A stretch of DNA of 33,727 nt from Novosphingobium sp. (GTDB taxonomy: Bacteria; Pseudomonadota; Alphaproteobacteria; Sphingomonadales; Sphingomonadaceae): assembly GCA_017987575.1 (NCBI GenBank), contig JAGNTK010000015.1:1-33727 (forward strand), written 5' to 3'. This document shows, piece by piece, positions 2,057-9,946 of the stretch. Each line of letters opens with the position of its first letter. The first letter of the stretch is position 1. A program made the translations under genes and the position numbers. Below the pieces are notes generated by a model. The model saw only the letters and a list, made by a program, of their open reading frames with translations. It was not told the origin of the DNA and ran no database searches.

Positions 2057-2806
2057 GTGAGCCAGTCCCCACCCGCCCCGCCGCAGATCTTCGCACCGGC
2101 CCGCCGCCTCGCCACACGCCGGAGGGCGATGAAGCTGTCCGTACGGCCCGATGCAGCACGCTATCTGCTCGAGGACATGGCCGAGGATGTGCTTGAGCGG
2201 CTTTCCTTCCTACGCCACCAGCCTGCGAAAGCGCTGGTAGTGGGTGACTGGACCGGAGGTCTCGCCGCAGCCCTGCGCGCGCAAGGGGTTGCAGTAACCG
2301 AAGTCGAACCTGCCGATGGTTTCGCCGAGGAGGCCCCCTACCCGCAAACCGGGTTTGACCTGATCGCCAGCCTTGGCACGCTCGATACGGTCAACGATCT
2401 GCCCGGAGCGCTGGTTCATATTCGCGGTGCGCTGGCTTCCGGCGGACTGGCCCTAGCGAGCTTTGTCGGCGCCGGATCGCTGCAGAACCTGCGCTCTGCG
2501 ATGCTGGCGGCCGATGGCGACCGCCCTGCCCCACGGCTTCACCCCGCAGTCGATGTCCGTGCGGGTGGACAGCTGCTGCAACGGGTCGGTTGGGCCAATC
2601 CGGTGGTCGATAGTCACACCGTCGATGTCCGCTTTTCCAGCCTCGCCAGCCTGCTTGCTGACCTGCGCGCGCAGGGCCTCAGCAACTGTCTGGTGAACCC
2701 GGGCCCAGCGCTGACCCGCTCTCAACTTTCCATTGCTACACAGCAGTTTGGAACCGGAACCGTTGAACAGTTCGAGATCCTGACGTTAAGCGGCTGGCGG
2801 GCTTAA
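2057..2806 (+). CDS. SAM-dependent methyltransferase, NDUFAF5/BioC-like
   Basis: This 249-residue class I methyltransferase-like protein has a degenerate SAM-binding motif I at ALVVGDWTGGL and an acidic motif near EVEPADG. The ATG at 2129 has a good GGAGGG site. However, the upstream GTG at 2057 adds PQIFAPARRLATRRRA, which matches the 'IF.R...RRRRA' opening of alphaproteobacterial homologues of the mitochondrial complex I assembly factor NDUFAF5, so I prefer GTG. NDUFAF5 hydroxylates an arginine in NDUFS7. Whether bacterial homologues do so is not shown. The gene is divergent from comF and its end overlaps the convergent ppdK end by 4 bp. Confidence 0.75.
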   Translation: MSQSPPAPPQIFAPARRLATRRRAMKLSVRPDAARYLLEDMAEDVLERLSFLRHQPAKALVVGDWTGGLAAALRAQGVAVTEVEPADGFAEEAPYPQTGFDLIASLGTLDTVNDLPGALVHIRGALASGGLALASFVGAGSLQNLRSAMLAADGDRPAPRLHPAVDVRAGGQLLQRVGWANPVVDSHTVDVRFSSLASLLADLRAQGLSNCLVNPGPALTRSQLSIATQQFGTGTVEQFEILTLSGWRA

Positions 2807-5466
2807 CCCAGCGCCGCCTGCGCCGCTGCCAATCGGGCAATCGGAACGCGGTATGGACTGGCGCTGACGTAGTCCAAGCCAACCTTCTCGCAGAACGCAA
2901 TTGAGGCCGGATCGCCGCCATGTTCGCCGCAGATGCCCAGTTTGATATCAGGTCGGGTCGCCCGCCCGCGCTGTGCAGCAAGCTCAACCAACTGCCCGAC
3001 GCCTTCGATATCCAGCGAAACAAATGGATCGCGCGGGAAGATGCCTTGGCTAACATATTCGCCCAGAAACTTGCCCGCATCGTCGCGTGAAACGCCCAGC
3101 GTCGTCTGAGTCAGATCGTTGGTTCCGAAGGAGAAGAACGCGCCTTCCTCGGCGATTTCGCCGGCCATCAGCGCTGCGCGCGGCAATTCGATCATCGTGC
3201 CGACCAGATATTCCAGCGTGCGGTCCTTTTCGGCAAATACCGCCGCTGCGGTCCGGTCGACCAGTGCCTTCAGGATCGCCAGCTCCTTGCGGGTCGCAAC
3301 CAGCGGGATCATCACTTCGGGGACAGGCGCTTGACCGCTAGTCGCCGCGACATCGCAGGCCGCTTCAAAGATGGCGCGGACCTGCATTTCGTAGATTTCG
3401 GGGAAAGTGATCCCCAGACGGCAGCCGCGATGCCCCAACATCGGGTTGAATTCATGCAGTTCGGCAGCGCGGCGCTTGAGTGTCTCGACGCCAATCCCGA
3501 TGGTCTCTGATAGCTCGACGAACTCGGCATCGGCGTGCGGCAGGAACTCGTGGAGCGGCGGATCGAGCAGCCGGATCGTTACCGGCAGGCCGACCATGAC
3601 CTCGAAAATCCCGGCGAAGTCGGCGCGCTGCTCAGGAAGCAGCTTCGCAAGCGCAGTGCGGCGTCCGGCTTCATCTTCGGCCAGGATCATCTGGCGCACG
3701 GCGGCGATCCGACCGGCGTCGAAGAACATGTGCTCGGTGCGGCAGAGCCCGACACCCTCGGCGCCAAACCCGCGCGCAATGCGGCAATCAGCCGGGGTTT
3801 CAGCATTGGTGCGGACTTTCATCCGCCGGTGCCGATCGGCCCAGCCCATCAGCACGCCGAAATCACCAACCAGTTCGGGCTCGATCGTCGGCACGTGTCC
3901 GGCCATGACCTGCCCGGTGGTGCCGTCGAGCGTGATCTGATCGCCTTCCTTGAGTTCACGCGTTCCGATTCGCAACGTGCGGTTCGCGATATCAATCGAC
4001 ACCGCCGAAGCCCCCGAAACGCAAGGCCGCCCCATCCCGCGCGCAACCACGGCGGCGTGTGACGTCATGCCGCCGCGCGCGGTCAGGATGCCCTTGGCGG
4101 CGTGCATGCCGTGGATGTCTTCGGGGCTGGTTTCGACCCGGACGAGGATCACCGCCTCGCCGCGTTCAGCCAGGTTTTGCGCCAGATCGGAATCGAGCAC
4201 GATCGCGCCCGATGCCGCGCCGGGGCTGGCCGGAAGCCCGGTGGTCAGCACATCGCGCGCCGCCTTGGGATCAAGCGTGGGGTGGAGCAACTGATCCAGC
4301 GCCATCGGATCGACCCGCAAGATTGCGGTTTTCTCGTCAATCAGGCCCTCACCGGTCATATCGACCGCCATCTTGAGCGCGGCCTTGGCGGTGCGTTTGC
4401 CCGAACGGGTCTGGAGCATCCACAGCTGCCCGCGCTCCACTGTGAATTCGATGTCCTGCATGTCGCGGTAGTGTTTTTCGAGCAGCTCGAACACCGCAGC
4501 CAGCTCGGCATAGGCCGCTGGCATCGCCTCTTCCATACTCGCCGCTTTGGCGCCAGCGCGCTCCCGCGAAGCCTTGGTCAGATACTGCGGAGTGCGGATC
4601 CCGGCGACCACATCCTCGCCCTGGGCATTTACCAGCCATTCGCCGTAATAGGCCTTCTCACCGGTCGCCGGATCGCGGGTAAAGGCAACGCCGGTGGCCG
4701 ACGTGTCGCCCATGTTGCCGAAGACCATTGCCTGCACATTGACGGCCGTGCCCCAATCGCCTGGAATGTCGTTGAGCCGGCGGTAAACCTTGGCCCGATC
4801 CGAATCCCAGCTATCGAACACTGCGCGGATCGCACCCCACAGCTGCTCGGTCGGGTCCTGCGGAAACGGCGCGCCCAGCTCGTCCTGCACGATCCCGGCA
4901 TATTCCTTGACCAGCGCCTGCCAATCTTCAGCCTGCATCTCAACATCGGCGTAGTAGCCCATGTCTTCCTTGGCGATTTCCAGCGCGTCTTCGAACAGGT
5001 GATGGTCGATGCCGAGCACCACATCGGAATACATCTGGATGAAGCGCCGGTAACTGTCCCAAGCGAACCGGGCATCGCCCGAGCTGTTGGCGAGGCCCTG
5101 CACCGTGGCGTCGTTCAGGCCCAGGTTGAGCACGGTATCCATCATCCCCGGCATCGAAACCCGCGCGCCCGAGCGGACCGAAACCAGCAGCGGATCCGCC
5201 GGATCGCCAAATTTCTTGCCAACGGCCCGTTCGATGTGACCCAACGCCGCCGAGACATCTGCTTTCAGCGCGTCTGAGAACTCTCCGCCCTCGGCCAGAT
5301 AGCGGACGCATTCTTCGGTGGTGATGGTGAAGCCCGGCGGCACCGGCAGGCCAATCCCGGCCATTTCCGCCAAGTTCGCGCCCTTGCCGCCGACAATCGT
5401 TTTGTCGCGGCTGCGGGGATCGTCGTTCGTTGCTCCGCCACCGAATGCGAATACGTATGCAGCCAT
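2803..5466 (-). CDS. ppdK: Pyruvate, phosphate dikinase
   Basis: The enzyme interconverts pyruvate + ATP + Pi and phosphoenolpyruvate + AMP + PPi, linking gluconeogenesis and glycolysis. The 887-residue length is normal. The order is an N-terminal ATP-grasp domain (GGKGANLAEM at about 27-36, VRSGARVSMPGMMD at 97-110), a central swivelling domain with the phospho-histidine H470 in GGMTSHAAVVARGMG, and a C-terminal PEP/pyruvate TIM barrel with a catalytic cysteine near 846 (GICGEHGGDP). No typical PpdK regulator (DUF299) gene is adjacent. The gene lies 54 bp downstream of glyS on the same strand and could be read through from it. Confidence 0.97.
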   Translation of the reverse strand: MAAYVFAFGGGATNDDPRSRDKTIVGGKGANLAEMAGIGLPVPPGFTITTEECVRYLAEGGEFSDALKADVSAALGHIERAVGKKFGDPADPLLVSVRSGARVSMPGMMDTVLNLGLNDATVQGLANSSGDARFAWDSYRRFIQMYSDVVLGIDHHLFEDALEIAKEDMGYYADVEMQAEDWQALVKEYAGIVQDELGAPFPQDPTEQLWGAIRAVFDSWDSDRAKVYRRLNDIPGDWGTAVNVQAMVFGNMGDTSATGVAFTRDPATGEKAYYGEWLVNAQGEDVVAGIRTPQYLTKASRERAGAKAASMEEAMPAAYAELAAVFELLEKHYRDMQDIEFTVERGQLWMLQTRSGKRTAKAALKMAVDMTGEGLIDEKTAILRVDPMALDQLLHPTLDPKAARDVLTTGLPASPGAASGAIVLDSDLAQNLAERGEAVILVRVETSPEDIHGMHAAKGILTARGGMTSHAAVVARGMGRPCVSGASAVSIDIANRTLRIGTRELKEGDQITLDGTTGQVMAGHVPTIEPELVGDFGVLMGWADRHRRMKVRTNAETPADCRIARGFGAEGVGLCRTEHMFFDAGRIAAVRQMILAEDEAGRRTALAKLLPEQRADFAGIFEVMVGLPVTIRLLDPPLHEFLPHADAEFVELSETIGIGVETLKRRAAELHEFNPMLGHRGCRLGITFPEIYEMQVRAIFEAACDVAATSGQAPVPEVMIPLVATRKELAILKALVDRTAAAVFAEKDRTLEYLVGTMIELPRAALMAGEIAEEGAFFSFGTNDLTQTTLGVSRDDAGKFLGEYVSQGIFPRDPFVSLDIEGVGQLVELAAQRGRATRPDIKLGICGEHGGDPASIAFCEKVGLDYVSASPYRVPIARLAAAQAALG

Positions 5467-5520: not shown

Positions 5521-7818
5521 CTAGCCTTCGATCTTCGAAAAGTCAGCCACTTTGTGCACTGCAGCACGGAACCGGTCGAGCAGGCCAAGCCGCGCAGCGC
5601 GGATGGCCGGATCATCGGCGTTGACCGTGACAGCTTCAAAGAACGCATCAATCGGCGCACGCAGTGTCGCGAGAGCGGCCATGGCGGCGGTAAATTCCTC
5701 AGCCACAATAGCAGCATCGGCCTTCGGCTCAGCAGCGTCGAGCGCGGCGATCAGCGCGGCTTCGGCAGGTTCCGGCGCAAGATTGACCGCGCCGGCCTCA
5801 AACGTTTCCTTCTTGAGGATGTTGGCGGCGCGCTTGTATCCGGCCAGCAGGTTGGTGCCGTCTTCGGTCCCGACAAACGCCTGCAGCGCATGAACCCGGG
5901 CGAGCAGGCGGACCAGATCGTCCTCGCCGCCGAGCGCAAACACCGCGTCGATCAGATCGTGGCGAACACCCGCTTCGCGCTGCTGGACTTTTAGGCGGTC
6001 GGCGAAGAAGTCGAGCAACTGTTCGCTAAACTTGTAGAGGTGCTCGGTGTTCTTCTTGGCTTCGTCAACAACACGTTGATCTGCCCCTTCGCGCGCCGCC
6101 TTGTAGAACGCAACAGCTGCTTCAGTACCCATTCGAATAAAGCGTGAGAGTGATTCAAATGTCCGATTGGCAAGTACCGTTGGATCAAGTTGATGCGCAA
6201 AAGGTTGCTGGAAGCCTGCTTCGACGATCACATTTTCGAGATTGAAGCGAAGTTTGTTGTCCAAAATAGTCCGCACGGCGGCTAATGAAGCACGCCGCAA
6301 TGCAAACGGATCTTTCGAGCCAGTTGGTTTTTCCTCAATCGAGAAAAATCCAGCCAAAGTATCCAGCTTATCCGCCAAACTCACCGCCACCGTCACCGGC
6401 GCGGTTGGCACTTCGTCGCCCTGCCCGACTGGCTTGTAGTGATCGCGGATTGCGTCGGCGACAGCGTCAGGCAGGCCCTCGGCGCGGGCGTAGTAGCCGC
6501 CCATCAGGCCTTGCAGTTCGGGGAACTCTCCGACCATTTCGGTGACCAGATCAGCTTTGCACAGGCGGGCCGCGAGTTCGGCTTGATCTGCCAAGTCCCC
6601 CTCCCGCTTGCGGGAGGGGTTAGGGGAGGGCCTGTCATCGTCAGGAGAGCCAACAGGCCCTCCCCCGACCCCTCCCGCAAGCGGGAGGGGAGAAGACGTG
6701 ACGATGCCCTCTTCAACCAGCCAGCGGGCCAGCTTGGCGACACGCTCGACCTTGTCGGCCACCGTCCCCAGCTTCTCATGGAACGTGATCCGGCCAAGCT
6801 TCTTGGCCTGCTCTTCCAGCGAAACCTTGCGGTCCTGTTCCCAGAAGAACTGCGCGTCGCTTAGCCGAGCGGCCAGCACCTTACGGTTGCCTGCAACAAT
6901 CTCCGCCCCGCCATCGAGCGCGACGATGTTGGCGGTGCAGACGAAGGCATTGGCCAATTTGCCTTTGCCGTCTTCACAGACGAAATACTTCTGGTTGGTC
7001 CGCGCGGTTAGCTGGATCACTTCGGGCGGGACATCGAGGAAAGCCTCGTCGAACCGGCCGAGCAAAGGCACCGGCCATTCGGTCAGCCCGGCGTTCTCAA
7101 TCACCAGCCCTTCATCAGCGACCAGCAGCAGCCCTTCAGCATGGGCCGCAGCGGCGGCGCCATCGCGGATCAGGTCCTGGCGCTGTTCGTGATCGACGAT
7201 GACATGGGCGGCGCGCAGCTTGGCGGCATAGTCATCCGCACCAGCGATTTCGATTTCGCCTTCGGAGTGGAACCGGTGGCCGCGGGTCAGGCGGCCTGAA
7301 GCGATGCCGTCGATTTCAAACGGCACCACTTCGCCATCCAGCAATGCGACGATCGCCGACAGCGGCCGAACCCAGCGCAGGCTTTCCGTGCTGATCGAGG
7401 CCACGCCCCAGCGCTGGCTTTTTGGCCAGGGGAACGCGCGGATAATCGCGGGGATCGCTTCGGCGAGCAGGTCGGCCGTCGCCCGGCCCGGCTTTTCGAT
7501 CACCGCGAACAGCACACCATCGCGTTCCACCAGATCGGTTTCGGACAGGCCGGTCTTGCGCAGGAAGCCTTCCAAGGCTTGCGGCGGAGCGCCAACGCGT
7601 GGGCCTTTCAGTTCTTCGCTGACCGCAGCGGTCGCCGTAGGCAGATCGCGCGCGATCAGCGCCAGACGGCGCGGCGTGGACCAGACGGTAATCTCGCCCA
7701 GCGCAACCCCGGCATCACCCAGCGCCTTGCGGAACAGCTTTTCCAGATCGGCGCGGGCACCGGCCTGCATCCGCGCGGGCACTTCTTCGCAGCGCAGCTC
7801 GAGAAGGAAATCAGACAT
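5521..7818 (-). CDS. glyS: Glycine-tRNA ligase beta subunit, with in-frame repeat insertion
   Basis: This is the beta subunit of the bacterial alpha2beta2 glycyl-tRNA synthetase, which charges tRNA-Gly and contributes tRNA recognition. The start is the ATG at 7818 (MSDFLLELRCEEVPARM, the usual opening). An upstream alternative at 7851 only adds intergenic sequence. The protein has 765 residues, longer than typical members of about 690. Residues about 377-407 are encoded by a 93-bp palindromic repeat, inserted between VERVAKLARWLVEEGIV and the conserved AELAARLCKADLVTEMVGEFPELQG. The reading frame is kept. The C-terminal DALR-like region runs to the end. The repeat segment is probably a surface loop that the enzyme tolerates (inference). 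Confidence 0.95.
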   Translation of the reverse strand: MSDFLLELRCEEVPARMQAGARADLEKLFRKALGDAGVALGEITVWSTPRRLALIARDLPTATAAVSEELKGPRVGAPPQALEGFLRKTGLSETDLVERDGVLFAVIEKPGRATADLLAEAIPAIIRAFPWPKSQRWGVASISTESLRWVRPLSAIVALLDGEVVPFEIDGIASGRLTRGHRFHSEGEIEIAGADDYAAKLRAAHVIVDHEQRQDLIRDGAAAAAHAEGLLLVADEGLVIENAGLTEWPVPLLGRFDEAFLDVPPEVIQLTARTNQKYFVCEDGKGKLANAFVCTANIVALDGGAEIVAGNRKVLAARLSDAQFFWEQDRKVSLEEQAKKLGRITFHEKLGTVADKVERVAKLARWLVEEGIVTSSPLPLAGGVGGGPVGSPDDDRPSPNPSRKREGDLADQAELAARLCKADLVTEMVGEFPELQGLMGGYYARAEGLPDAVADAIRDHYKPVGQGDEVPTAPVTVAVSLADKLDTLAGFFSIEEKPTGSKDPFALRRASLAAVRTILDNKLRFNLENVIVEAGFQQPFAHQLDPTVLANRTFESLSRFIRMGTEAAVAFYKAAREGADQRVVDEAKKNTEHLYKFSEQLLDFFADRLKVQQREAGVRHDLIDAVFALGGEDDLVRLLARVHALQAFVGTEDGTNLLAGYKRAANILKKETFEAGAVNLAPEPAEAALIAALDAAEPKADAAIVAEEFTAAMAALATLRAPIDAFFEAVTVNADDPAIRAARLGLLDRFRAAVHKVADFSKIEG
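6598..6690. repeat. 93-bp palindromic repeat inside glyS
   Basis: Two 38-bp arms (6598-6635 and 6653-6690) are inverted copies of each other with a single 2-base difference (TTAGG against TCGGG), separated by a 17-bp spacer. Each arm itself contains the small palindrome CTCCCGCTTGCGGGAG. The length is 31 codons exactly. Both strands are open: the minus strand gives SPLPLAGGVGGG...RPSPNPSRKREG (used in GlyS) and the plus strand gives a near-identical PLPLAGGVRGG...RPSPDPSRKREG. Short intergenic palindromes of this sequence type are familiar from alphaproteobacterial genomes. Confidence 0.93.
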
Positions 7819-7847
7819 GGGCCGTTTCCCCAACACAAGTAGCACCG

Positions 7848-8004
7848 TCACCCTGAACTTGTTTGAACAAGTTCAGCTTCGCTTCCAGGGTCCATTTGGC
7901 CACACAGACCGAAGTGTCGTTTGGCAAGCCAACCGCGCCGCTGCGGGCGCGCTGCGCCATCGGGGCCAACGGCACGATGGATCCTGAAACAAGTTCAGGA
8001 TGAC
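7848..8004. repeat. Inverted-repeat element between glyS and glyQ
   Basis: The gap between glyQ and glyS is filled by an element with 19-bp inverted ends: CGTCACCCTGAACTTGTTT (7848-7866) and AAACAAGTTCAGGATGACG (7986-8004), one mismatch apart. The left end also carries a second inverted copy, giving AACTTGTTTGAACAAGTT. Translation of one strand gives the peptide RHPELVSGS, a signature I recognise from spurious small ORFs produced by this common alphaproteobacterial repeat. It leaves glyQ and glyS about 216 bp apart and could act as a processing or termination structure between them. Confidence 0.75.
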
Positions 8005-8034
8005 GAAGAGGTTGGGTGAAGGTGTGGGGCGCGC

Positions 8035-8937
8035 TCACAGGCTCCACTCCGGATAGTCGATCGCCCATTGGTCCTTGTTCTTCTCAATCCACGCCTGGCA
8101 CGCGCCCTTGGCGAGATCGCGGACCCGGCCCATGTAGCTGGCGCGTTCCTGCACGGAAATCACGCCGCGGGCCTGCAGCAGGTTGAACAGGTGGCTGGCC
8201 TCGATCGCCTGATCATAGGCAGCGAGCGGCACGTTCGCCTCGATACAGCGCTGCGCCTCAGCCTCAGCGGCCTGAAAGCCCTTGAACAGGCTTTCGGTAT
8301 CGGCAACTTCAAAGTTGTATTTGGAAAATTCCTGCTCGTTCTTCAGGAACACCTGGCCATAGCTGACCCCGGTGCTGTTGAACGCGAGATCATAGACGTT
8401 GTCGACGCCCTGAATGTACATCGCCAGCCGCTCAAGACCATAGGTCAGCTCGCCCGCAACCGGCTTGCAATCGAACCCGCCCATCTGCTGGAAATAGGTG
8501 AACTGGGTGACTTCCATCCCATCGCACCAGACTTCCCAGCCAAGGCCCCAAGCGCCAAGCGTCGGACTTTCCCAGTCATCCTCAACAAAGCGGATGTCAT
8601 GCGCCAGCGGATCAACCCCGATTTCGGCGAGGCTTTGCAGGTACAGCTCCTGCAGGTTGGCCGGGTTCGGCTTCAGGATCACCTGATACTGATAGTAATG
8701 CTGCAGCCGGTTGGGGTTTTCGCCATAGCGGCCATCGGTCGGGCGGCGGCTCGGCTGGACATAGGCCGCACTCCACGGCTCCGGTCCCAGACTGCGCAGG
8801 GTGGTCGCTGGGTGAAACGTCCCCGCACCAACGCGCATGTCATAGGGCTGCAGGATCAGGCAGCCCTGCTTGCTCCAGAAGGCGTGGAGGCGCAGGATCA
8901 TGTCCTGGAAACTGAGAGGGCCGGTGCTGTCGCTCAT
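8035..8937 (-). CDS. glyQ: Glycine-tRNA ligase alpha subunit
   Basis: This is the catalytic alpha subunit of the alpha2beta2 glycyl-tRNA synthetase. It activates glycine with ATP and pairs with the beta subunit encoded downstream. The start is the ATG at 8937 ([21 protein letters not shown]), giving 300 residues, the usual length. An upstream in-frame extension to 9111 would run into the divergent TraB/GumN gene. Family hallmarks are visible: [58 protein letters not shown] and [13 protein letters not shown]. It is upstream of glyS on the same strand, but a repeat element lies between the two. Confidence 0.97.
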
Positions 8938-9025
8938 GCTGCGGCCTTTGGCGGATGGGTCCTGCCCGGTCAATATCCCACAATGTTCATCGACTGGCAG
9001 GAATTTGCCCGTTAGAACCCGCTTC

Positions 9026-9946
9026 ATGCGCAAAATCAAAGCCCTTTTCGCCCCGCTCGCCGCCCTTGCCCTGCTGGGGCCCGCTGCGACTGCCCAGCAA
9101 AGCCATCCCACTCCGCAACCGGTTCAGGCAGCGCCCGCCCCCGTACTCGCCAAACCAGCGCTGTGGAAGGTGTCGGATGCCGATACCACGATCTATCTGT
9201 TCGGCACGATCCACCTGCTGCCCGAAGGGATCGAGTGGTACAACGGTCCGGTTGCGAAGGCGTTTGAGCAATCGCAGCAACTGGTCACCGAAATTCCCGA
9301 AGTGAACGAGGGCGAGACGATCGCGCTGATGATGAAGCACGGCACCCTGCCAGCAGGGCAAAGCCTGCGCGATCAGATGACCCCGGATGAAAAAGCCAAG
9401 TACGATGCCGCGATGACCGGGCTGGGCCTGCCACCCGCCGCCTTTGATCGCTACAAACCCTGGTTTGCGGCAATGGCGCTGGCCATCCTGCCGCTGCAGC
9501 GCAAGGGTTATGCACTGGACAATGGTGTCGAAGCTCAGCTCGACAAACGCAACAAGGCGCTGGGCCGGTCGCGGATCGGGCTCGAAACGTTGGATTTCCA
9601 GCTCGGCATTTTTAACGGCTTTTCGCCCGCTGTTCAAAAGACATATTTGTTCGGCGTGATCGATGCCCTGCCCAACATCACGCAGGAAATCGAAAAGATG
9701 GTCGGATCCTGGACCAAGGGTGACGCCGAAGCGCTGGCGCTGACGCTCAATGCCGAAAGCGATGATCCGGCTCTATACGAAGCGTTGCTGACAGGTCGCA
9801 ACCGGAACTGGGCCGCATGGATTGATCAGCGGCTGGATCAGCCCGGAACGATCTTCATCGCTGTTGGTGCAGGCCATCTAGGCGGCAAGGGATCGGTGCA
9901 GGATTTCCTTGATGGCCGGGGGATCAAGACGGTCCGTGTTCAATAG
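9026..9946 (+). CDS. TraB/GumN family protein, secreted (first of tandem pair)
   Basis: This 306-residue protein belongs to the TraB/GumN (Tiki-like) family, whose animal Tiki members are metalloproteases. Most bacterial members are uncharacterised. A cleavable signal peptide covers about residues 1-23 ([14 protein letters not shown]). The two GxxH motifs expected of the family are present, GTIH at 60-63 and GAGH at 281-284, so the putative metal site appears intact. Start chosen is ATG 9026. It is divergent from glyQ and overlaps the next gene, a paralogue, so the pair is probably co-translated. A periplasmic protease role is inference only. Confidence 0.85.

Follow-up and report, generated by a model that had tools for sequence, protein, structure and literature searches.

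A palindromic repeat inserted in frame into glyS of a Novosphingobium genome, and nuclease genes nested between repeat arms in its relatives

GlyS is an essential protein, the beta subunit of glycine--tRNA ligase, and in a Novosphingobium sp. genome its gene harbors a palindrome that is translated with it. What kind of element is this, and how could it come to lie in such a gene? The window, that is, the whole stretch of DNA that was analyzed, comprises 33,727 nucleotides (contig JAGNTK010000015.1 of assembly GCA_017987575.1, positions 1 to 33,727). Its glyS was assigned with the TIGR00211 profile (713.6 bits, cut-off 300), and the closest named GlyS among the matches listed are those of Novosphingobium and other Sphingomonadales. 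A preliminary description, made from the letters alone, had proposed that glyS contains a 93-bp palindrome in frame, and this was borne out: the element is exactly 93 bp long, its arms match in inverted orientation at 36 of 38 positions, and the reading frame is open throughout, encoding the peptide PLPLAGGVGGGPVGSPDDDRPSPNPSRKREG (Table 1). Within each 38-nt arm lies a 22-bp palindrome without mismatch. For the element as a whole the centre-anchored inverted-repeat score is 32, as against 10-12 in eight first-order Markov shuffles, and the insert region (117 nt) has a folding energy of -101 kcal/mol, calculated for the native sequence alone. It had also been claimed that both strands encode near-identical peptides, which is true of frame 0, and that neither strand carries a stop, which applies to four of the six frames, the third frame of each strand having stops.

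Table 1. Positions in the window of the glyS insert, its parts and its neighbors.
Feature	Position	Strand	Basis or remark
93-bp paired palindrome (REP-like dimer), in frame in glyS	6598..6690	-	sequence
Arm 1, 38 nt: 22-bp palindrome CCCCTCCCGCTTGCGGGAGGGG and inward tail TTAGGGGAGGGCCTGT	6598..6635	+	
Spacer, 17 nt	6636..6652	.	unrelated to spacers of other host copies (by eye)
Arm 2, 38 nt, inverted, 36/38 identical to arm 1	6653..6690	-	
GlyS residues ~371-405, disordered loop housing the insert, between helices 353-369 and 401-422	6604..6708	-	model
glyS, glycine--tRNA ligase beta subunit, 765 aa, open across the insert	5521..7818	-	TIGR00211
glyQ, glycine--tRNA ligase alpha subunit; insert-free neighbor control	8035..9111	-	upstream of glyS
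ppdK, pyruvate, phosphate dikinase; insert-free neighbor control	2803..5466	-	
Second repeat pair, glyQ-glyS gap: CGTCACCCTGAACTTGTT... then inverted ...AACAAGTTCAGGATGACG	7846..8005	.	

The second repeat pair occupies much of the gap between glyQ and glyS, and its arm type also flanks GIY-YIG genes at two other loci (L316 and L318).

The palindrome belongs to a multi-copy family, as had been supposed. When the host MAG (G000; 2.49 Mb, 82.6% complete) was searched for the 22-bp core with up to two mismatches, 26 arms were found at 14 places, as 12 pairs and 2 singles, and the reversed-pattern control gave none. Inspected by eye, these arms read CCCCTCCCGC-nn-GCGGGAGGGG, with a tail resembling YYRGGGGWGGG behind it; the tails point inward in 11 of the 12 pairs, and the spacers are unrelated. 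The window family is a palindrome of 20-40 bp that occurs in many copies, mostly as pairs in opposite orientation, and no GTAG or CGTC end tag was seen by eye on its arms in the 12 pairs of the MAG. One of these pairs encloses a DUF559 gene (L050, G000:C57:37758-38189; Pfam match of 119 bits, cut-off 20.6), and its arms are identical to those of the glyS insert at 37/38 and 36/38 positions. The gene context was scanned at part of the places, covering seven open frames across or next to copies at four places other than glyS. Near ruvA and hisS the element lies upstream of the recognized domain, and near pgk it lies, by eye, outside it, so that the glyS copy is the sole one among those tested that sits inside a gene of a recognized family. 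The suggestion that the element survives by being translatable is left unsupported in that form. The doubt raised in the preliminary description, that the repeat might be only intergenic elsewhere and this copy an assembly artefact, is half borne out for the MAG, but an artefact is excluded because many other genomes carry inserts at the same site of glyS, some of them in a single contig (e.g., G111).

The extent of insertion at this site was determined in 210 GlyS sequences of the family Sphingomonadaceae, 130 of them drawn from 197 matching genomes (the 30 best, then mostly in order of score; 129 were parsed) and a further 80 that were the best 80 among the matches listed. After removal of 4 unparsed and 7 duplicate sequences, 199 distinct parsed GlyS were left, in which we measured the length from LARWLVEEGIV to the helix that precedes KADL. 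An in-frame palindromic-repeat insert is present in 98 of the 199, a proportion that is not an unbiased frequency because of the score-led sampling and the unparsed and duplicate rows; 88 have no insert (47-50 residues counted from FHEKLG) and the remaining 13 were classed as other. All 98 insert-bearing genes are open over >600 aa, with 8 to 60 extra residues. By hand labeling, the inserts fall into four unrelated superfamilies, namely CGTC (47 inserts), the pyrimidine-stem repeats YR (27; stems such as CCCTCTCCCC and the window's own CCCCTCCCGC), PPP (15; TCCTCCCCGnnnCGGGGAGGGGGACC, TCCTCCCCG-type) and VEG (9; CCTGAGCyTGTCGAAGG, GAGCTTGTCGAAG-type). Automatic labels had been dropped, as they over-called CGTC and placed even the window's insert there; the CGTC inserts of the relatives do bear the CGTC tag. 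None of the 22 parsed GlyS from outside the family (28 class-level loci, 6 unparsed) has an insert, so that within this sample the empty state is ancestral. In the neighboring genes at the loci of named family members, inserts of 12 or more residues were found in 1 of 76 ppdK rows and 2 of 81 glyQ rows. We have high confidence in the repeat family of the window's insert and in this loop of GlyS as a hotspot, invaded by repeats of the CGTC, YR, PPP and VEG superfamilies.

With these counts the preliminary reading can be placed. Homologues are indeed continuous at the site, the insert being lacking in 56 of the 129 GlyS of the family draw and in all 22 from outside; it is not the case that all of them carry an equivalent segment without the palindrome. 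The interpretation as an inserted element is thus upheld, but that reading had missed the invasion by several unrelated families as well as the nuclease-bearing versions.

Other variation was seen in the same alignments. Repeat inserts were also seen, at a lower rate, in two other loops: one lies at residues 281-283 (window glyS numbering; 8 of 199 rows), and the other, a natively variable loop at residues 674-675, has inserts in a few rows (L023, L028, L059, L204). Residues ~502-600 are highly variable between relatives (identity ~0.5), with native length differences. One unparsed row (L221) has, by eye, two inserts in one GlyS, and at L224 a VEG-like repeat peptide is found at the end of ppdK, in its C-terminal part.

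Concerning the loop itself, an AlphaFold model (pTM 0.49, used solely to show the loop as disordered) gives a pLDDT below 50 for residues 378-401, which lie between the two helices delimited in Table 1. With phmmer the insert falls between residues 378 and 385 of 7yse_C, a solved GlyRS beta subunit, and the part of PMC9908026 available to us places the tRNA-contacting HD loop near residue 476, away from the insert site. The insert would be tolerated because the loop is disordered and the frame is kept open. As for the point of entry, the CGTC tag coincides with the host's ATC-GTC codon pair (Ile-Val) in 17 of the 47 CGTC inserts, and CGTC is present at that position in 28 of the 88 empty alleles; comparison of these alleles hints that a host CGTC at the insert start reflects target choice. 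Directly after the Ile-Val codons, some inserts begin like the 3′ end of a tRNA (L024, L080 and L174 by pattern, L018 by eye), and the start of L080 is identical at 27 of 27 positions to the tRNA-Arg(CCT) of the same genome, a resemblance that hints at template switching. A general link between tRNAs and the repeats was considered and dropped: no repeat lies behind the tRNA-Arg(CCT) of the L080 genome, no exact tRNA donor was found for L024, and neither the 109 nuclease-region loci nor the 80 glyS loci contain a tRNA gene.

How often the loop changed state was estimated on a GlyS tree built with FastTree after removal of the insert columns. The label "no insert" requires 49 changes, at least 31 of them forced by well-supported (starred) branches, and all five labels together require 76. 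The empty states are slightly clustered, 49 changes comparing with a shuffled mean of 62 and 2 of 500 shuffles being as low; on a gene tree, a re-insertion and an exchange of glyS alleles look alike. Among the 39 genera with at least two parsed genomes, 19 mix inserted and empty alleles, 11 have inserts of different superfamilies, and 7 have at least two inserts, all of one superfamily. Of the three genomes of the window's own genus, one has a YR insert, another a CGTC insert and the third no insert. It might be argued that a single ancient insertion in glyS was later overwritten, or that inserted and empty alleles were exchanged between genera by recombination, given that a downstream motif, LADxAE, is common to inserted alleles and that the empty allele type PNCDP (23 rows, several genera) has an identity of 0.94-0.97 at residues 412-486, compared with 0.84-0.92 in the KGADP type. 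Each insert, however, has the arms of a repeat family, which for CGTC and CCCTCTCCCC is usually abundant in the same genome, and the absence of inserts from GlyS outside the family also weighs against this account, which we consider unlikely. On its own, the uniformity of the PNCDP type near the site (residues ~371-486) looks as if it had spread by recombination.

The abundance of repeats in each genome is informative in this respect. CGTC copies have a median of 31 in the 27 genomes with a CGTC insert versus 1.5 in the 56 without insert (p 5.5e-8), and at least 6 hits were found in 24 of these 27, fewer than 6 in the other 3. Genomes with other inserts also exceed the insert-free ones in CGTC copies (p 3.2e-7), and they do not differ clearly from those with CGTC inserts (p 0.09). 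Since the CGTC count separates genomes with and without insert and not the types of insert, it shows repeat load rather than family matching. For CCCTCTCCCC the medians are 5.5 copies in the 12 genomes with that insert and 0 in the 56 without (p 5.9e-5). VEG and PPP copies, counted in 27 chosen genomes, are few or absent under the pattern used in some of those with the corresponding insert (VEG: 0 in G083 and 2 in G156; PPP: 0 in G004, 3 in G192 and 2 in G051). These data also bear on the notion that the insert is kept for a function, its mRNA hairpin or peptide tuning the synthesis or folding of GlyS. A strongly hairpin-forming insert at one position in nearly half of the sampled family GlyS, with the folding energy given above, could be read in this way; against it, 88 of 199 GlyS have neither insert nor substitute hairpin, the inserts are unrelated in sequence and length, and their presence tracks the genomic repeat load. 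We regard a retained function as very unlikely.

We hold, also with high confidence, that nuclease genes are nested between repeat arms in these genomes. DUF559 (Vsr-like) is present in 88 and GIY-YIG in 98 of 99 family genomes. A gene was scored as nested when inverted arms with an ungapped score of at least 16 were found on both sides, within 160 bp (DUF559) or 230 bp (GIY-YIG). In the palindrome-flanked nuclease element that we propose, the gene has an arm on either side, the two arms being inverted copies of each other. This layout was found in L050 and in 39 of 46 DUF559 loci that had been selected without regard to repeats: 26 among the 30 top-scoring hits and 13 among 16 lower-ranking ones (four of the 16 come from the host MAG). 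In L281, one of these loci, a nearby CGTC hit was known beforehand, and 7 of the 46 are below threshold. Once loci met through repeats are added, the count is 44 of 52. For GIY-YIG, 22 of the 30 best hits have inverted arms and 8 are below threshold. None of the controls gave such arms: 0 of 907 long open frames (six-frame and partly overlapping) at either distance limit, 0 of 138 shuffled flanks and, for flanks at a greater distance, 0 of 44 and 0 of 30. As each arm is a palindrome in its own right, flanks in direct orientation pass too in 20 of the 46 DUF559 loci. Outside the family the nesting is weaker, with arms at 15 of 28 class-level DUF559 loci, to which the host's own locus comes in addition. 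Two widely spaced CGTC pairs, chosen for their spacing, each hold a GIY-YIG gene, and independent coordinates place a DUF559 gene between two CCCTCTCCCC hits in G053 and between two PPP hits in G075, and a GIY-YIG gene between VEG hits in G026 and G001.

Two tools were discarded. Cross-locus pairing of DUF559 flanks (maximum score 126) cannot serve as a control, since arms recur from genome to genome, and a regular expression for DUF559, which missed 27 of 51 loci including L273-L274, which hold GIY-YIG instead, gave way to a profile derived from 30 loci. Separately, a DUF559 gene is found directly upstream of glyS in L026 (G075), L029 (G079), G051 and L198, with PPP-type arms in L026, L029 and L198.

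On the nuclease trees, the family of the arms follows the clade of the nuclease. A single change on the DUF559 tree is enough to part the YR (35) from the PPP arms (10), at a support of 96 (shuffled mean 9.3, with none of 500 shuffles reaching so low a value), and a single change on the GIY-YIG tree parts the VEG (17) from the CGTC arms (9), at a support of 99 (shuffled mean 7.5, again none of 500). The arm labels were given by eye and loci without arms left out; included are L273 and L274, chosen for CGTC spacing, and L311 and L315, with arm scores of 14 and 13. This strict match would be left unexplained if the repeats were ordinary REPIN/REP sequences moved by RAYT (Y1, HUH) transposases, with the nested nucleases incidental. 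The inverted-pair layout is certainly that of REP dimers, a Y1_Tnp match was obtained in 17 of 99 genomes, and the 17 of 47 CGTC inserts that start exactly at a host CGTC resemble tetranucleotide-specific insertion, as is known for IS200/IS605. But the remaining 82 genomes lack Y1_Tnp, among them G042 with its 335 CGTC hits; no cognate RAYT was found in the host MAG, 82.6% complete as it is, and the window family shows by eye no GTAG tag. We find RAYT transposition distinctly unlikely.

All things considered, the glyS insert is probably a palindrome-flanked nuclease element in its gene-less form, which a disordered loop of the protein tolerates. The 93-bp dimer, head-to-head and non-autonomous, would belong to a family in which the longer members have a DUF559 (Vsr-like, PD-(D/E)XK) gene between the same arms. 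Such units, together with analogous GIY-YIG units with other arms, are scattered through Sphingomonadaceae genomes. We infer that the cognate nuclease from a nested copy may cut DNA and start the copying of a unit, in cis or in trans, by a homing-like break repair in which the hairpin arms would be the recognized ends. One dimer would have entered glyS in the HD domain, at a loop on the surface that may tolerate any open segment of 20-50 residues; glyS could stay open and active because the dimer is open in four of six frames and 93 bp long, and the inserts would be neutral for GlyS. In a loop so permissive, and under a high repeat load, inserts of unrelated palindrome families would have come, been exchanged and been lost many times over. 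As a whole, this explanation, that is, a gene-less dimer of the DUF559-element family, its entry into a permissive loop and a candidate nuclease-driven spread, seems to us likely. Its single parts carry their own weight: as far as can be judged from sequence, the case for the candidate nuclease as the mobilizer of the repeats is about evenly balanced, and the nested genes could be passengers.

How REP-like repeats without RAYTs multiply is an open question, and a candidate cognate nuclease for each of four superfamilies offers a concrete, testable answer, as well as a candidate role for DUF559, which by its Pfam name is still of unknown function. More broadly, the short palindromic repeats of Alphaproteobacteria, or at any rate the four superfamilies described, may descend as non-autonomous copies from mobile elements of a new class. 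Such an element would consist of paired hairpins with one small nuclease gene (GIY-YIG or DUF559) between them and would spread by break-and-copy without a transposase, its arm family tied to its nuclease clade, and glyS would be a shared landing pad of the class in Sphingomonadaceae; we see this generalization as having equal chances of holding and of failing. In any case, the glyS loop documents how an essential protein was in nature subject to in-frame insertion again and again, and the entry, decay and exit of unrelated elements could be compared at this one site. In the open-access literature searched we found no link of DUF559 or GIY-YIG to palindromic repeats and no related report of a palindromic in-frame insertion in glycyl-tRNA synthetase.

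Among known systems, the nearest are the CGTC and GTAG REPs, likewise short palindromes, mostly head-to-head dimers and intergenic, with some in frame in genes, whereas the window family carries neither tag. In the portion of Di Nocera et al. (2013, PMC3733652) available to us, CGTC REPs are described as head-to-head dimers without a dedicated transposase; E. litoralis and S. alaskensis are reported to have REPs in tRNA synthetases, and recB of two Xanthomonas is given as one case of a shared site. The words "glyS" and "glycyl" are absent from its main text, as are a shared loop and a multi-family hotspot, and the available portion names no nuclease partner; the synthetases of E. litoralis and S. 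alaskensis may be GlyS. The same source equates RPE-4 and RPE-6 with CGTC REPs. With the palindromic elements of Rickettsia, to which the preliminary description had likened the insert, the common trait is tolerance in frame inside protein genes, here in glyS and 97 further GlyS; this much of the comparison stands, as a good analogy and not as membership. RPEs are spread over many genes and here one site takes many families, and host and sequence differ too, the two having been compared by description. Caulobacter VsrA is also a DUF559 protein and, in the part of PMC12907096 available, a genetically demonstrated cause of the DNA damage response; it is described there as a mismatch-repair endonuclease, and repeats and mobility are not discussed in that part. 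The REPIN/RAYT system shares the inverted hairpin pair, the variable spacer and the non-autonomous copies, but its HUH transposase lies outside the pair, whereas here a GIY-YIG or DUF559 gene lies inside it. Finally, homing endonucleases of the GIY-YIG and EDxHD (Vsr-like) types, with their minimal elements, include small stand-alone nucleases and insert into conserved genes, two traits shared with the present units. They differ in that no intron or intein is involved here and that gene-less hairpin dimers far outnumber the units that bear a nuclease.
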